From positions 1 through 64,000 of the forward strand of contig JAHIWE010000069.1 of the NCBI GenBank assembly GCA_018816105.1: DNA of 64,000 nt, in the 5' to 3' direction. Position numbers and translations under genes: made by a program. The notes under the pieces are model-generated. The model saw only the letters and a program-made list of their open reading frames with translations, had not been told where the DNA came from and made no database searches. Shown here piece after piece: positions 39,625 through 49,091 of the stretch. Each line of letters starts with the position of its first letter. The stretch's first letter is position 1. The stretch is from a bacterium (GTDB taxonomy: Bacteria > Campylobacterota > Campylobacteria > Campylobacterales > Arcobacteraceae).

Positions 39625-40605
39625 TTAGATTGGTAAAACTCTTAAGTTTTCATCAATTTTTTGTTGTAATACAGATTCGATTGCATATAAAGTTCCTGAA
39701 GATCCAGACGAACATCCAGAACATGAACCTAAGTATCTGATATATAAATCATAATGAGGTAAGTTATCTTTAATATCAATAATTTCCATATTTCCACCAT
39801 CCATAACTAGCATTGGTCTAATATCAGAATCTAATACAGAATCAATTGCTTTAATTCTTTGAACTAAAGTCATTTTATCAAATGATAATGTTCCGCTAGC
39901 ACTTGCATCTGCTGCATTTTTCATTTTTGATTCTTCCATTTCAGCTCTTACATCTTTTAAAATATCAACTAGGTAGTACTCTTTCGCTTCATGACCACCT
40001 GGTTTAATACATGATTTACAAAAAGCACCAGCTTTTGTATAATCTGTAATTTGCTCAACAGTTTTTAAGTCATTGATTCTAATAACTTCTCTAATTGTTC
40101 CTAATGAAACCCTTGCACATTCACAAACGATTACTTCAGTTTCAAAAGATTCCATATCAACACCTTTGTACTCAGCTGCTGCTTTTTTGATAACATCATA
40201 AGCCATAACTGAACAGTGCATTTTTTGAGGTGGAACAGCTGGTGTATCTGCATTATCTCTTAGTGCAAATTCAACATCAATATTTGTGATTTTAACAGCT
40301 TCATCAACTGTTTTACCAACACAAAGTTCTGCCATAACATCAGATGATGCAATTGCAGTACCACAACCAAAAGATTTAAATTTTGATTCTACAATTTTAT
40401 CATTTGACTCATCAACTGCCCAGTAAAGTCTTACTGCGTCACCACATGATTCAGCTCCAAAATCTGCAACGATTAGTTTTGCTCCTAATGCTGCTGCTCT
40501 TTCTTCTGTAATTTCACCTTGGTGTTTTGGGTTGTTCATTCTATTTACAACTTGATTTGAGTACTCGTCCCAAATTGATCCGCTAATTAAACTATTTTTC
40601 GCCAT
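39625..40605 (-). CDS. nifU: NifU-type Fe-S scaffold (IscU + bfd-like Fe-S + NFU domains)
   Basis: SFGCGTAIASSD, VIVCECARVSLGTIREVI...AGAFCKSCIKPGGHE, C-terminal YLGSCSGCSSGSSGTL. Confidence 0.9.
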   Translation of the reverse strand: MAKNSLISGSIWDEYSNQVVNRMNNPKHQGEITEERAAALGAKLIVADFGAESCGDAVRLYWAVDESNDKIVESKFKSFGCGTAIASSDVMAELCVGKTVDEAVKITNIDVEFALRDNADTPAVPPQKMHCSVMAYDVIKKAAAEYKGVDMESFETEVIVCECARVSLGTIREVIRINDLKTVEQITDYTKAGAFCKSCIKPGGHEAKEYYLVDILKDVRAEMEESKMKNAADASASGTLSFDKMTLVQRIKAIDSVLDSDIRPMLVMDGGNMEIIDIKDNLPHYDLYIRYLGSCSGCSSGSSGTLYAIESVLQQKIDENLRVLPI

Positions 40606-40638: not shown

Positions 40639-41856
<1,218 letters not shown>

Positions 41857-41925: not shown

Positions 41926-41950
41926 AAATAGGATAAGAATTGTCTTAATT
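41926..41950. promoter_or_regulatory. Degenerate copy of the suf operator upstream of nifS-nifU
   Basis: AAATAGGA-N9-TCTTAATT; same left arm and spacer as the two sufB-upstream dyads. Confidence 0.45.
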
Positions 41951-42134: not shown

Positions 42135-42950
42135 ATGAAAAAAATAATTTCAATTATATCTCTTACATTTTTATCACTATTTTTTATTGCTTGTGATAAT
42201 AAAAGCGAAGTAAAAACTGAAAAAAAAGAAGAAAAACAAGTATTAAAAGTAGGAATGGAATTAGCTTATCCTCCTTTTGAAATGAGTGATAAAGATGGTA
42301 ACCCACAAGGTGTATCAGTTGACTTTGCTAAAAAGTTAGGTGAGTATTTAGGGAAAGAAGTTGTAATTGAAAATACAGCTTGGAGTGGATTAATTCCATC
42401 ACTTAAAACTGGAAAAATTGATTTAATTATCTCTTCAATGACAATTACAGATGAAAGAAAAAAATCAATTGATTTTTCAATTCCTTATGCACAAACAGCT
42501 TTGGCAATTCTTGCAAATAAGAATTCAAATGTAAATTCTATTGATGATTTAAATGTAGCAGGTAAAAAAATTGCTGTTAAAAAAGGTTCAACTGGACATA
42601 TTTATGCCACTGAAAATTTAAAAAATGCAGAAATTTTAGTATTTGATAAAGAAAATGCTTGTGTTTTAGAAGTAGTTCAAGGAAAAGCTGATGGATTTTT
42701 ATATGATCAATTAACAATTTATAAAAACTATGCACAACACAAAGATACAACAGTTGCTCTACTAAAACCATTTCAAAAAGATTTTGAATATTGGGGAGTT
42801 GCACTTAGACAAAATGATCCATTAAAAGATAAAGTAAATGAATTTATAAGTAAAGCAAAAGCAGATGGAACATTTGCAATATTTGCACAAACACATTTAA
42901 AAGATGCAAAAGCTACTTTTGATGAATTAAAAATTCCATTTTTCTTTTAG
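42135..42950 (+). CDS. Amino-acid ABC transporter substrate-binding lipoprotein
   Basis: Lipobox FFIACD; LKVGMELAYPPFEMSDKDGNPQGVSVDFAKKLG...SSMTITDERKKSIDFSIPY. Confidence 0.92.
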   Translation: MKKIISIISLTFLSLFFIACDNKSEVKTEKKEEKQVLKVGMELAYPPFEMSDKDGNPQGVSVDFAKKLGEYLGKEVVIENTAWSGLIPSLKTGKIDLIISSMTITDERKKSIDFSIPYAQTALAILANKNSNVNSIDDLNVAGKKIAVKKGSTGHIYATENLKNAEILVFDKENACVLEVVQGKADGFLYDQLTIYKNYAQHKDTTVALLKPFQKDFEYWGVALRQNDPLKDKVNEFISKAKADGTFAIFAQTHLKDAKATFDELKIPFFF

Positions 42951-42962
42951 GACTTTTACCCA

Positions 42963-43751
42963 TTGAATTTAAAAAAATATTTCATAAATGAATTAGATAT
43001 AAAAAAGATAAACCCTTTGTCAAAAGGGGTTTATCTTTTTAATTTTTCACTTCTTTTATTTTTAGTTTCTCTATGCATGTATTTTATGTTTTCAAATATC
43101 ACTTACAATTTCAACTGGGCTCACGTTTATGAATATAAACAAAAGTTTATAAATGGTTTTATAATGACAGTTGTAATCTCATTTTTTGCACTAATTCTTA
43201 GTTTTATAATTGGGCTGTTTTTTGCTTATGCTCAAAACTCTAAATTAATAATACTAAGATTTTTTTCACGATTTTATATTGAAATTATAAGAGGAACTCC
43301 CCTACTTGTTCAAATACTTATTTTCTTTTATGTATTTGCAAATAATTTGGGTTTTGAAAATAGATATATAGTTGGAACAGTAATTCTTGCTATTTTTTCA
43401 GGTGCTTATGTATGCGAAATAATAAGAGCAGCAATTCAATCAATAGAAAAAGAACAGTTCGAAACCTCTTTAAGCTTAGGAATGTCTAACTATCAAATGT
43501 ATAGATATATCATTTTTCCTCAAGCTTTTAAAAGAATGCTTCCCTCACTTACGGGGCAGTTTGCCTCAATTATAAAAGATTCTTCATTATTATCAATAAT
43601 TGCTATTAGTGAATTTACTATGAATGCTCAAGAAGTTGATGCTATTACATACTCAACATTAGAGAGTTATATACCTCTTGCTATTGGATATTTAATTTTA
43701 ACATATCCTATTTCTTTCTATACTAAAAGCTTAGAAAATAAGATAAAATAG
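42963..43751 (+). CDS. Amino-acid ABC transporter permease
   Basis: HisM-type: IEIIRGTPLLVQILIFFYVF...SGAYVCEIIRAAIQSIEKEQFETSLSLGMSNYQMYRYIIFPQA. Confidence 0.92.
   Translation: MNLKKYFINELDIKKINPLSKGVYLFNFSLLLFLVSLCMYFMFSNITYNFNWAHVYEYKQKFINGFIMTVVISFFALILSFIIGLFFAYAQNSKLIILRFFSRFYIEIIRGTPLLVQILIFFYVFANNLGFENRYIVGTVILAIFSGAYVCEIIRAAIQSIEKEQFETSLSLGMSNYQMYRYIIFPQAFKRMLPSLTGQFASIIKDSSLLSIIAISEFTMNAQEVDAITYSTLESYIPLAIGYLILTYPISFYTKSLENKIK
43002..43040 (+). terminator. Terminator-like hairpin inside 5' end of the permease ORF
   Basis: AAAAAGATAAACCCTTT-gtcaa-AAGGGGTTTATCTTTTT (one G-U pair), followed by T-rich tract. Confidence 0.6.
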
Positions 43752-43771
43752 TATTTACATATCAAAATATT

Positions 43772-43800
43772 TTAAATAGGATAATTTATATCCTATTTAA
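43772..43800. promoter_or_regulatory. Operator-like perfect inverted repeat upstream of sufB (copy 1)
   Basis: TTAAATAGGATA-atttа-TATCCTATTTAA: 12-bp perfect arms; core AAATAGGA-N9-TCCTATTT at 43774-43798. Confidence 0.65.
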
Positions 43801-43831
43801 GTATTTATTAATAATTGTGGTGCTATATTTC

Positions 43832-43856
43832 AAATAGGACTAATATTATCCTATTT
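43832..43856. promoter_or_regulatory. Operator-like inverted repeat upstream of sufB (copy 2)
   Basis: AAATAGGA-CTAATATTA-TCCTATTT, identical core arms and 9-nt spacer; 30 nt before the sufB ATG. Confidence 0.65.
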
Positions 43857-43885: not shown

Positions 43886-45331
43886 ATGAACGAAAACAAA
43901 CAAATACATGACGTAATAAACAAAGAGTATAAACTCGGATTTGAAACTTTAGTACAAAGTGACACTTTTGCAAAAGGTTTAAATGAAGACGTAATAAGAG
44001 CAATATCAGCCAAAAAAGATGAACCTTCTTGGCTTTTAGATTTTAGGTTAAAAGCCTATGCTAAATGGCTTAAAATGGAAGAGCCATCATGGGCACATTT
44101 AAAATATCCTAAAATTAATTATCAAGATATTGCATATTATTCAGCACCAAGAAAAGCTTTAGATTCACTTGATGAAGTTGATCCTGAGATTTTAAAAACT
44201 TATGAGAAGCTAGGTATTCCACTAGAAGAGCAAAAACAATTAGCAGGTGTTAAAACAGTTGCGGTTGATGCTGTATTTGATTCAGTTTCAGTAAAAACAA
44301 CATATCAAGATGAACTTGAAAAATTAGGAATCATTTTTTGCTCAATTTCTGAAGCTGCACATAAATATCCTGAACTTGTAAAAGAGTATTTAGCATCAGT
44401 TGTTCCTACTGTGGATAACTATTTTGCCTGTTTAAATTCTGCTGTTTTTACAGATGGAAGTTTTGTATATATTCCAAAAAACACTAGATGTCCAATGGAA
44501 TTATCAACATACTTTAGAATAAATGCTCTTGATACTGGACAGTTTGAAAGAACATTAATCATTGCAGATGAAGGCTCTTATGTATCTTATAATGAAGGCT
44601 GTTCAGCTCCAACAAGAGATGAAAGACAACTTCACGCAGCAGTTGTTGAATTAGTTACATTAAAAGATGCACAAATAAAATATTCAACAATTCAAAACTG
44701 GTTTCCAGGTGATGACAATGGAAAAGGTGGGATTTTAAACTTCGTTACAAAAAGAGGTTTATGTAAAGGTGATAACTCTAAAATCTCATGGACACAAGTT
44801 GAAACTGGATCTGCTATTACTTGGAAATATCCTTCATGTATTCTTGCTGGTGATAATAGCGTTGGAGAGTTTTACTCTGTTGCCATCGCTTCAAAATCTC
44901 AGCAAGCAGACACAGGAACTAAAATGGTGCATTTAGGGAAAAATACTAAATCAACTATTATTTCAAAAGGAATCTCAGCAATGAGAGGAACAAATGCATA
45001 TAGAGGACTTGTAAGAGTTGGGAAAAATGCAAGTAATGCTAGAAATATTTCAGAGTGTGATTCACTTTTAATTGGAAATAAATGTCATGCACATACATAT
45101 CCATATCATGAAATAAGAAATAGTTCAGCAAATATCGAGCATGAAGCAACAACTTCAAAAATATCTGAAGAGCAACTATTTTATATTTCTCAAAGAGGAA
45201 TTAGTGAAGAAAATGCAATTGCCATGATTGTAAATGGTTTTTGTAAAGAAGTATTAAAAGAGTTACCAATGGAATTTGCAGCAGAAGCAAAAGAATTATT
45301 AAGCATATCATTAGAAGGAAGTGTGGGTTAA
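43886..45331 (+). CDS. sufB: Fe-S cluster assembly protein SufB
   Basis: [34 protein letters not shown]...[26 protein letters not shown]...[11 protein letters not shown]. Confidence 0.95.
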
Positions 45332-45333
45332 TC

Positions 45334-46101
45334 ATGAAAAATACAGTATTAAAAATAGAAGACTTAGAAGTAAGCATAAATGAAAATAAGATTTTAAAAG
45401 GTTTAAATTTAGAGATTAAAGAGGGTGAAGTTCACGCTTTAATGGGAACAAATGGAGCTGGAAAATCTACTTTAGTAAAAACATTAAGTGCACACTATGA
45501 CTGTGTTGTAACAAATGGAGTAATCACATATAAAAAGAAAAACCTTCTTGATTTAGATGTTTCACAAAGAGCAAATGAAGGTATTTTTATGAGTTTCCAA
45601 TCTCCTATTGAAGTTCCAGGTGTTAATAATAGCTATTTTCTAAAAACTGCAATGAATGAAAAAAGAAAATATGCAGGTCTTGAAGAAATAGATGCAATGG
45701 AGTTTTTAAAACATGTAAAAGAAGAAACAGCAAAATTCAATATCGATAGAAAACTTTTACAAAGAGATTTAAATGATGGTTTTAGTGGTGGTGAGAAAAA
45801 AAGAAATGAACTAATTCAACTTTTAATGCTACAACCTGATTTAATTTTATTAGATGAAATAGATTCAGGACTTGATGTAGATGCTATTAAAACCGTTGCA
45901 AATGTGATAAATTCTATGCTAGATGGTAAGAGATCAATTTTAATGATTACTCACTATGATAGACTTTTAGAGTTAATCAAACCTGATTTTGTACATATTT
46001 TAAATGATGGGAAAATTGTAAAAACAGGAGATTATAGCTTAGCCTTAGAACTAGATGAAAAAGGTTATGAAGCAATAGGAATCAAAGATGAAAGTAAATG
46101 A
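45334..46101 (+). CDS. sufC: Fe-S cluster assembly ATPase SufC
   Basis: ALMGTNGAGKSTLVKTLSAH, FSGGEKKRNELIQLLMLQPDLILLDEIDSGLDVDAI. Confidence 0.95.
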   Translation: MKNTVLKIEDLEVSINENKILKGLNLEIKEGEVHALMGTNGAGKSTLVKTLSAHYDCVVTNGVITYKKKNLLDLDVSQRANEGIFMSFQSPIEVPGVNNSYFLKTAMNEKRKYAGLEEIDAMEFLKHVKEETAKFNIDRKLLQRDLNDGFSGGEKKRNELIQLLMLQPDLILLDEIDSGLDVDAIKTVANVINSMLDGKRSILMITHYDRLLELIKPDFVHILNDGKIVKTGDYSLALELDEKGYEAIGIKDESK

Positions 46102-47122
46102 GATAAAAGGTTTAAACTTACCTAATAAAAAAGATGAAGAGTTTTTAAAAATAAATCTTGATGCCCTATTCTCTTATGATTTTAAAGATGTTCAAACTTA
46201 TGAGTTTGATATTATGGGATTAAAAACAGTAGATGATGAAAAATCTTATGAAAGCGTTTTATTTGATATTACAAGAAGTATTGATAATAAACAAAAAGTT
46301 ATCACTATAAATAAAAATATTGCAGAGCCTATTTTTTTAATACATAAAATCAAAGAGGATGAAACATTTTTTACTAACTCTTTGAAAATAGAAGTTGCAA
46401 AAGATATAAAAGCTCAAGTGGTTGAAGTTTTTGTTAGTTCTTCAAAAAACTCTGCATATAGTGTAAATAGAACTTTTGAGCTTGATGAAAACTCATCCCT
46501 AGAGTATGTAAAAGTTCAAGACTTTGATGTATCAAATTCATTTATTTTTAACTCTTATGTGGAACAGCAAGAGAGTTCAACTCTTGATTTTACTAACTTT
46601 GAATATGGAAATGGTTTTATTTTAAACAATTTTATTAACAATATAAACAAAGAAAATATAACTTATAATCTAAATGGTTTAGTAAAACTAAAAGATGATA
46701 CTAACTGTTCAAATTTGATAAAAACAGTACATAATGCAAAAAGTTCACTAAGTAATATTGATTATAAACACTCTTTGAAAGATAACTCAAAAGCAATATT
46801 TAAAGCAAAATCAATAGTAAATGAAACAGCTTTATTTACAAAAGCTTTTCAAAATACAAATACAATTTTATTAAGTGATGATGCTACTATTTTTGCTCAG
46901 CCTCATCTTGAAATTTATATAGATGAACTAGAAGCTAGTCATGGTGCAACAACAGGAAGTTTAAATAAAGAACAGCTTTTATATTTAGAATCAAGAGGGA
47001 TTCATAAGGAATTAGCTTATGAAATATTGTTAAAAGCTTTTGAAGAAAAAATAGCTCATAATATAAAAGATGAAATAATAAAAGATTTTATAGAAACTTA
47101 TGAAAGAAGTAAATATGTTTAA
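46088..47122 (+). CDS. sufD: Fe-S cluster assembly protein SufD
   Basis: Position in suf operon; C-terminal ATIFAQPHLEIYIDELEASHGATTGSLNKEQLLYLESRGI. Confidence 0.9.
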   Translation: MKVNEIKGLNLPNKKDEEFLKINLDALFSYDFKDVQTYEFDIMGLKTVDDEKSYESVLFDITRSIDNKQKVITINKNIAEPIFLIHKIKEDETFFTNSLKIEVAKDIKAQVVEVFVSSSKNSAYSVNRTFELDENSSLEYVKVQDFDVSNSFIFNSYVEQQESSTLDFTNFEYGNGFILNNFINNINKENITYNLNGLVKLKDDTNCSNLIKTVHNAKSSLSNIDYKHSLKDNSKAIFKAKSIVNETALFTKAFQNTNTILLSDDATIFAQPHLEIYIDELEASHGATTGSLNKEQLLYLESRGIHKELAYEILLKAFEEKIAHNIKDEIIKDFIETYERSKYV

Positions 47123-48299
47123 AAAAGATTTTCCTTATTTTCAAAATTCGAAAACTATATATTTAGATAATGGTGCAACAACTCAAAAACCAAAAGTAGT
47201 AATTGATTCACAAATTGAGTATTATGAACAGTATTGTTCAAATACCCATAGAAGTAACTTTGGTCATGCAAATAAAGCAACACAAGAGTTTGAAAAAACA
47301 AGAGTTACATTAAAAGAGTTTATAAATGCTTCAAAAAATGAAGAGATTATTTTTACAAAAGGTGTAACAGAATCTATAAATTTTATATCTAGTTCATTTG
47401 CAAAAGATTTTAAAACTGTAATTATCTCTTCACTAGAACATCACTCAAATATCGTTCCATGGCATATGCAAGGAAGATCTTTGGGAAATGGTCTTGAAGT
47501 TGTAAAATGCAATGATAACTTAGATTTTGATTTGGAACATTTTGAAGAGTTATTAAAAGCAAATCCTAACGCCTTTGTAAGTGTTACACATATTTCAAAT
47601 GCCTTTGGAAAAATACATGACATAGAAACTATTACAAAACTTGCTCACTCATATGGTGCTGTTGTTTTAATAGATGGGGCTCAAAGTTTAGCTCATTTAA
47701 AAGTAGATATGCAGAAATATGATTGCGATTTTTTTGCAATTTCAGGACACAAAACTTTTGCACCAACAGGAGTTGGAGCTATTTATATAAAAGAGAAATA
47801 TTTAAAAGATATTAAACCATATCAAACAGGAGGAGCAACTATTCACGAAGTTGATTTTAATAGTTCAACCCTTTTAGATTCACCTTATAAATTTGAAGCA
47901 GGAACTCAAAATATAGCTGGAGTTATAGGATTTGGGAAAGCACTTGAATATCTAACACATATAAAATATGAAAATATTGAAAGTATAGAGAACCATGTTT
48001 ATAAATATTTAGATGAAGAACTAGCTAAGATTCCTAATATTATATTTTATAATGATATTTCTAATTCTATAGGAAGTAGAAGTTTTAACTTCGAAGGTAT
48101 TGTTCATGATGACATAGGGATTTTAGTAGATAAAATGAATATAGCGCTAAGAGTTGGTCATCACTGTGCTCAACCTATTATGAAAAAACTTGGAATCAAA
48201 GGGACTATTCGAGTTAGTACTGCTTTTTATAATGATTATGTTGATGTAGATAAATTAATAGAAGCTTTGAAAAAAGCTTTAAGAATGTTAAAGGATTAA
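47100..48299 (+). CDS. sufS: Cysteine desulfurase SufS (probable start at ATG 47115)
   Basis: YLDNGATTQKPKVVIDSQIEYYEQYCSNTHRSNF...SSLEHHSNIVPWHM...SGHKTFAPTGVGAIY...LRVGHHCAQPIM. Confidence 0.94.
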   Translation: MKEVNMFKKDFPYFQNSKTIYLDNGATTQKPKVVIDSQIEYYEQYCSNTHRSNFGHANKATQEFEKTRVTLKEFINASKNEEIIFTKGVTESINFISSSFAKDFKTVIISSLEHHSNIVPWHMQGRSLGNGLEVVKCNDNLDFDLEHFEELLKANPNAFVSVTHISNAFGKIHDIETITKLAHSYGAVVLIDGAQSLAHLKVDMQKYDCDFFAISGHKTFAPTGVGAIYIKEKYLKDIKPYQTGGATIHEVDFNSSTLLDSPYKFEAGTQNIAGVIGFGKALEYLTHIKYENIESIENHVYKYLDEELAKIPNIIFYNDISNSIGSRSFNFEGIVHDDIGILVDKMNIALRVGHHCAQPIMKKLGIKGTIRVSTAFYNDYVDVDKLIEALKKALRMLKD

Positions 48300-48302
48300 A
48301 AA

Positions 48303-48713
48303 TTGAATATTATAGAAAAAAGAGTAGAAGATATAAAAGAGAATTTAGACTTTTTTGATGATGAATTAGCAAAATATGAATATATTATAGATTTAGGAAA
48401 AAAATTAGAAGAATTTAAAGAAAGTGATAAAACCCCAGAAAATATAGTACATGGCTGTACTTCACAAGTTTGGTTAACACATGAAGTAAAAGATGGAAAA
48501 ATGTATTTTAGAGGAACAAGCGATGCAATAATCGTAAAAGGTTTAGTTTATATGATTTTACAAATATTTTCAGATTCTACAATTGAAGAGTTAAAACAAA
48601 TTGATATGGATATAGTACACGAACTAAAATTAAGCGAAGTAATAACTCCAAATAGACAAAGTGGAGTAATAGGAATGATGAAAAAAATAAAAGAATATGC
48701 ACAAAATGCATAA
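48303..48713 (+). CDS. sufE: Cysteine desulfuration protein SufE
   Basis: YEYIIDLGKKLEEF...NIVHGCTSQVWL; TTG start; in suf operon. Confidence 0.92.
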   Translation: MNIIEKRVEDIKENLDFFDDELAKYEYIIDLGKKLEEFKESDKTPENIVHGCTSQVWLTHEVKDGKMYFRGTSDAIIVKGLVYMILQIFSDSTIEELKQIDMDIVHELKLSEVITPNRQSGVIGMMKKIKEYAQNA

Positions 48714-48740: not shown

Positions 48741-49091
48741 ATGCAAACAAATTTTGATTTAAAAAGTATTGAAGAAAAAGTAATAACAAATTTAAAAAAT
48801 GTATTTGATCCAGAAATACCAACAAATATTTATGATTTAGGATTAATTTACAATATAGACTTCGAACAAAAAAATCAATACCTATACTGTACAGTAACAA
48901 TGACACTAACAAGTCCCACTTGTCCAGTAGCAGAAAGTCTATTAGAGCAAGTAAAATATGTAACTCTAGCAGTTGATGAAATTGATGAAGCAAAAGTAAC
49001 TCTAGTATTCAATCCACCATGGGATCCATCTATGATGAGTGAAGATGCAAAAGAAGTTATGGGAGCAAGTGGAGCAGCTATGCCTTTTTAG
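48741..49091 (+). CDS. DUF59/MIP18-family (SufT/PaaD-like) Fe-S assembly protein
   Basis: NVFDPEIPTNIYDLGLIYNIDF...VTMTLTSPTCPVAESL...VTLVFNPPWDPSMMSEDAKEVMG. Confidence 0.88.
   Translation: MQTNFDLKSIEEKVITNLKNVFDPEIPTNIYDLGLIYNIDFEQKNQYLYCTVTMTLTSPTCPVAESLLEQVKYVTLAVDEIDEAKVTLVFNPPWDPSMMSEDAKEVMGASGAAMPF

Follow-up and report, generated by a model that had tools for sequence, protein, structure and literature searches.

The nif and suf genes of the window share a 25-bp operator

The window, by which we mean the whole 64-kb stretch of DNA analysed (GC content of 27%), carries the genes of both a NIF-type and a SUF system for Fe-S assembly. The reverse strand encodes the Fe-S scaffold NifU (39625–40605) and the cysteine desulfurase NifS (40639–41838), the latter scoring above the cut-off of TIGR03403 (nifS_epsilon), and the forward strand contains sufB (43886–45331), sufC (45334–46101), sufD (46088–47122), sufS (47100–48299), a sufE-like gene (48303–48713) and a sufT-like gene of the SUF-associated MIP18 family (48741–49091). 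All of these nif and suf gene calls proved correct in a profile search. Between nifS and sufB lie forward-strand genes of an amino-acid ABC transporter (42135–43751), encoding a substrate-binding protein (42135–42950) and a permease (42963–43751). A strong terminator-like hairpin (43002–43040; 17 pairs, T tail) falls inside the start of the listed permease open reading frame (ORF), so that the true permease start may be located more 3', with the hairpin possibly forming a boundary between the permease and binding-protein genes.

A pattern search of the window recovered the two exact copies of AAATAGGA-N9-TCCTATTT that had been reported in front of sufB. Copy 1 (43774–43798; AAATAGGATA-ATTTA-TATCCTATTT) is a perfect 10-N5-10 palindrome 88 bp 5' of the sufB ATG, and with its flanks included the 12-bp arms described before were borne out (TTAAATAGGATA-N5-TATCCTATTTAA); copy 2 (43832–43856; AAATAGGACT-AATAT-TATCCTATTT) is located 30 bp 5' of the same ATG. 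The third dyad, at 41926–41950 (AAATAGGATA-AGAAT-TGTCTTAATT) and 88 bp 5' of the nifS ATG, is present with the two mismatches originally noted, but it is not a degraded copy: its right arm, AATTAAGACA, is an alternative half-site that occurs commonly in the family, and the dyad shows no mismatch to the family consensus. None of the three sites is assigned to a strand. Apart from these, the window holds no further copy with up to three mismatches, in line with the preliminary description, in which no other copy had been noticed, and a first-order model predicts 0.00014 exact copies per 64 kb. The sufB and nifS dyads all represent a single 25-bp operator, AAWTARGAYA-N5-TRTCYTAWTT.

The placement of these sites is shared with relatives, where the counterpart of copy 2 lies 17–39 bp 5' of the sufB ATG and the nifS operator 83–94 bp, or 90 bp, before nifS. 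In many relatives (L019, L186, L196, L202, L270–L274) nifS or nifU is divergent from an adjoining sufB with no transporter genes in between, and the gap contains two sites, one at 17–30 bp from sufB and the other at a distance of 43–90 bp from the nif gene. NifS and sufB are separated by the transporter genes in the window and in L020, and by a longer stretch including them in G098; despite this separation the sites are kept with their own genes, in the window at the 30 and 88 bp given above. The second, upstream sufB site is an addition common to the window, G098 and L020. In a contig search for SufB, only four loci were clearly from Campylobacterota.

The operator is conserved among Campylobacterota

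The 8-N9-8 form of the motif is near background when three mismatches are allowed, both in the window (1.8 expected) and in the genome to which it belongs (89 sites versus 70 for the control), whereas the 10-N5-10 form yields 26 sites versus 5 for the reversed control in the same genome. The signal thus resides in the longer form, and the 8-N9-8 form was dropped. The refined consensus given above was built from the first hits in the own genome, with the reversed motif as control. At up to one mismatch it gives 12 sites versus none for the control in the own genome, a count that is partly circular because the consensus derives from hits in that genome; the family and phylum counts are free of this circularity. 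Across the Arcobacteraceae we found 584 sites versus 22 in the control, with the motif present in 98 of 101 genomes. In a pooled logo of 105 distinct sites the blocks AA.TA.GA and TC.TA.TT are near-invariant, which is partly built in, as the sites were gathered using the same pattern. The motif is far above background in its own and in related Arcobacteraceae genomes, and suf and nif orthologues are preceded by it in many genera, which belong to several families. One match of a different kind, with a single mismatch, lies inside an ORF of 305 residues (G195, L262:1001–1025) and recurs in genomes of family f3; given its position inside an ORF, it is probably a chance match carried along by a conserved gene.

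Genes preceded by the operator

None of the 12 sites of the own genome falls inside an ORF; each precedes a gene, at no more than about 220 bp from a start codon. By pattern search, on which the regulon lists rest, the genes behind them comprise Fe-S functions (sufB with two sites, nifS and an Mrp/ApbC-type Fe-S carrier), redox functions (a di-haem cytochrome c peroxidase, a glutathione peroxidase and ccoN) and a set of others, namely a NosL-like protein, a chemotaxis receptor, an ORF without Pfam match and a secreted protein of 75 residues with two tandem sites. Matches with two mismatches add a superoxide reductase (SOR) and a U32 peptidase, both named by Pfam. In other genera and families the recurrent targets are sufB, nifS, nifU, SOR, the thiol peroxidase Tpx, Mrp, SufE-like and SufT-like genes, joined by ferredoxin, flavodoxin and, in G014, nifH; several of these names in relatives were read from the sequences rather than assigned by profile search. 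Most sites lie 17–90 bp before the ATG.

Three promoters merit separate description. The 75-residue protein (contig C34, L001:1203–1427) contains HEAT/leucine-variant-like repeats, and the two sites in its promoter, 35 bp apart, are among the strongest site pairs of the regulon; in G098 (L264) the promoter of this protein likewise carries two tandem operator sites at a distance of 35 bp. In G014 a perfect operator (L183:1224–1248) is found 146 bp upstream of the nifH-like gene, so that nitrogenase may be part of this circuit in at least one relative. In G001 a site (L194:1264–1288) lies between a Fur/PerR-family gene, at 29 bp, and a divergent rubrerythrin-like gene, an arrangement that suggests cross-talk between two oxidant regulators.

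An Rrf2 protein as candidate regulator

A search with PF02082 identified three Rrf2 genes in the own genome: a CymR-like gene beside cysK, an NsrR-like gene beside a norC-like gene, and a third, L016, downstream of rpsO on contig C71, outside the window. The L016 protein is well above the cut-offs of the Rrf2 superfamily (TIGR00738, 116 bits versus 73.3; PF02082, 106.6 versus 30). It has the winged-helix Rrf2 fold: its sequence matches the structures of IscR, RsrR and CymR, and the same three are matched by its predicted structure (E values of 1e-6 to 1e-5, TM of about 0.6), which is of low confidence in the cysteine loop. Three cysteines, Cys91, Cys98 and Cys106, spaced C-X6-C-X7-C, do not vary among 58 orthologues, and 56 of 57 retain Glu8. 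All 58 orthologues have Ala-Lys at positions 41–42 of the recognition helix, in place of the Glu43-Gln44 of E. coli IscR. Of the solved structures, the one matched best in sequence is 4hf2, catalogued as IscR with the E43A mutation in complex with its promoter; this substitution lets apo-IscR bind type 1 sites (PMC3899308, PMC5411485).

Nearly all Arcobacteraceae have an L016 orthologue, as do 103 of 150 Campylobacterota, and the 47 genomes without it all belong to family f2, probably the Helicobacteraceae, in which the motif is at background (3 sites versus 4 in the control). Any site at all was present in 77 of the 103 genomes having the orthologue versus 3 of the 47 without it, leaving about a quarter of the orthologue-bearing genomes with no site at the stringency used; the Fisher p of 4e-16 for this co-occurrence is overstated, as the absence in f2 is a single phylogenetic event. 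In the Arcobacteraceae genus g8, where the L016-type gene is absent or has diverged, hardly any motif sites are left, and some f2 genomes have other Rrf2 proteins yet no or single sites. The L016 orthologue is the sole Rrf2 protein in several genomes holding 3–6 sites (e.g. G108, G129, G144, G151 and G193). The CymR-like and NsrR-like paralogues were rejected as the general binder, as genomes lacking them keep the sites.

A regulator gene with the same site at its own promoter, for which the preliminary description had proposed to look, occurs in some lineages: a site is located 28–56 bp upstream of the L016-type gene in G001, G150 and G153, and one with three mismatches precedes it in G154 and G183. 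Most Arcobacteraceae, the own genome included, have no such site before the L016-type gene itself. With about 0.4 such self-promoter sites expected by chance (a rough figure from about 12 loose sites, some 1,600 promoters and 59 loci), these cases are supporting rather than decisive. In three draft genomes (G055, G060 and G050; L277–L285) no L016 orthologue was detectable; they have an NsrR-like Rrf2, and their sites precede nifS, tpx or sufT-like genes. The absence might be due to gaps in the assemblies or to divergence. Linkage to rpsO was of no help in locating the gene in these drafts, since in G006, of the same genus as G055 and G060, the L016-type gene and rpsO are on different contigs.

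Proposed mode of action and alternatives

Taken together, the operators conserved across Campylobacterota probably bind one uncharacterised Rrf2 sensor controlling both Fe-S systems and oxidative-stress defences. The earlier suggestion that a single regulator might co-ordinate the NIF and SUF systems gains support from the comparative data, with a motif above background, located at suf and nif orthologues and before some Rrf2 genes. The computation establishes a conserved operator with a regulon, co-occurring with L016-type proteins, and from this we infer binding and repression by L016; with good confidence, we regard the sites as operators of this one cluster-binding factor, which most likely represses suf, nif and oxidant-defence genes when clusters are plentiful. 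In this model a dimer of L016 would bind the 25-bp palindrome, the three cysteines would hold the sensing Fe-S cluster, and Glu8 might provide a fourth ligand. With plentiful clusters, the cluster-loaded dimer would most likely repress sufBCDSE-T, nifSU and the oxidant-defence genes by covering their promoters; upon loss or oxidation of the cluster, the DNA would be released and all targets raised together. At sufB, a possible extended −10 element (TGCTATATT, 43821–43829, forward strand) was read by eye, though it was not listed by the promoter scan. Such an element would place copy 2 over the transcription start and copy 1 just upstream of the −35 region, a putative layout that fits repression by the cluster-loaded form and release upon cluster loss.

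The same regulator might instead act in another mode, either by activation or by both activation and repression, with one form activating from the upstream sufB site and the other form repressing from the start-site copy, as E. coli IscR does at suf and isc. The two sites at sufB, of which the first lies upstream of the putative −35 and the second covers the putative start, would suit such a scheme, and E. coli apo-IscR is an activator of suf (PMC12594620). Nevertheless, all targets found carry one operator type and most sites occupy the 17–90 bp before the ATG that are the usual place of a repressor, so that we consider an activating or dual mode possible yet clearly the less likely arrangement.

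It appears rather unlikely that the operator is bound by another regulator of similar distribution, PerR or a CymR-like or NsrR-like paralogue, with L016 a mere fellow traveller. The site 29 bp before the Fur/PerR-family gene of G001 and the three genomes with sites and an NsrR-like Rrf2 lacking an L016 orthologue speak for this possibility, and as some Helicobacter lack PerR too, co-occurrence by itself does not tell PerR and L016 apart. Known Fur and PerR boxes, however, are of the TTATAAT type and differ from the operator motif, which counts against PerR; in many genomes with 3–6 sites the L016 orthologue is the sole Rrf2, and this rules out a paralogue as the general binder; and sites precede the L016-type gene in several lineages. 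Finally, the probability that the sites are AT-rich palindromes arisen by chance, or else terminators of transcription, as the GC content of the window and the near-background counts of the 8-N9-8 form might suggest, is practically negligible given the excess over control in the Arcobacteraceae, the promoter positions, the recurrence of the same genes across several families and a terminator scan that does not call the operator sites.

Returning to L016 as a putative cluster-sensing repressor, we lean slightly towards the broader view that the main regulator of Fe-S and oxygen damage in Campylobacterota is a separate Rrf2 subfamily, marked by an Ala-Lys pair for recognition and by a cluster site made of Glu8 and three cysteines, with a single operator tying together NIF-type, SUF, superoxide reductase and thiol peroxidase genes. 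Microaerophilic Campylobacterota, some of them food-borne pathogens, live at the edge of oxygen damage, and for a joint rise of Fe-S assembly and oxidant defence the analysis yields one candidate sensor together with a defined operator and a list of the genes behind it. A function is thereby suggested, too, for a conserved C. jejuni gene that bears only the annotation 'Rrf2 family': judging from the linkage to rpsO and the nifS site of an f3 genome, Cj0883c (CJJ81176_0891) is probably the L016 orthologue. Transposon mutants of CJJ81176_0891 were depleted in mouse colonisation (log2 −7.14; PMC5438104). In the open-access literature searched we found no regulon for Cj0883c or any L016-type protein.

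Comparison with known Rrf2 systems

The operator recalls those of IscR from E. coli and Pseudomonas in its 25-bp 10-N5-10 geometry, its central GAY-N-RTC core and the occurrence of a pair of operators at a single promoter. The window sites agree with the IscR type 1 operator (ATASYYGACTRWWWYAGTCRRSTAT; PMC3899308) at 12–15 of its 25 positions, which is not above window background; direct comparison with the E. coli type 1 consensus thus gave no significant match, and by letter count the half-site is, as remarked at the outset, unlike the E. coli IscR motifs, with only geometry and core in common. The proteins share the Rrf2 fold, three cysteines and, on our reading of the regulon, control of Fe-S assembly genes, but L016 was rejected as an IscR orthologue: it scores 79.3 against a TIGR02010 cut-off of 207.6 and lacks Glu43 and the cluster ligand His107, with no conserved histidine at positions 107–112 among its orthologues. 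Further differences from IscR are that the L016 gene is not in an isc operon, that the outer half-site letters differ, and that the candidate regulon holds SOR, Tpx and NIF-type genes.

With the Xanthomonas-type SUF regulator (TIGR02944), L016 would share the role of an Rrf2 regulator of suf genes, but it scores 71.6 bits against a cut-off of 110.7 and its gene is unlinked to suf. RirA of Rhizobium is likewise a three-cysteine Rrf2 sensor linked to iron, in which position 8 tunes iron sensing (PMC10510648); it differs in having Asn8 instead of Glu8 and in controlling iron uptake, and L016 reaches 59.3 against the RirA cut-off of 193. NsrR of Streptomyces coelicolor resembles L016 in the Ala44 and Lys45 of its recognition helix (PMC5411485) and in having, besides its three cysteines, an acidic side chain at position 8. 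As position 8 provides the fourth cluster ligand in NsrR, the Glu8 of L016 leads to the prediction that the protein could hold a cluster in the manner of NsrR. The two are nonetheless distinct, as NsrR has Asp8, L016 scores 40.8 against a cut-off of 182 for NF008240, and its candidate regulon comprises Fe-S assembly and peroxide and superoxide defence rather than NO detoxification.
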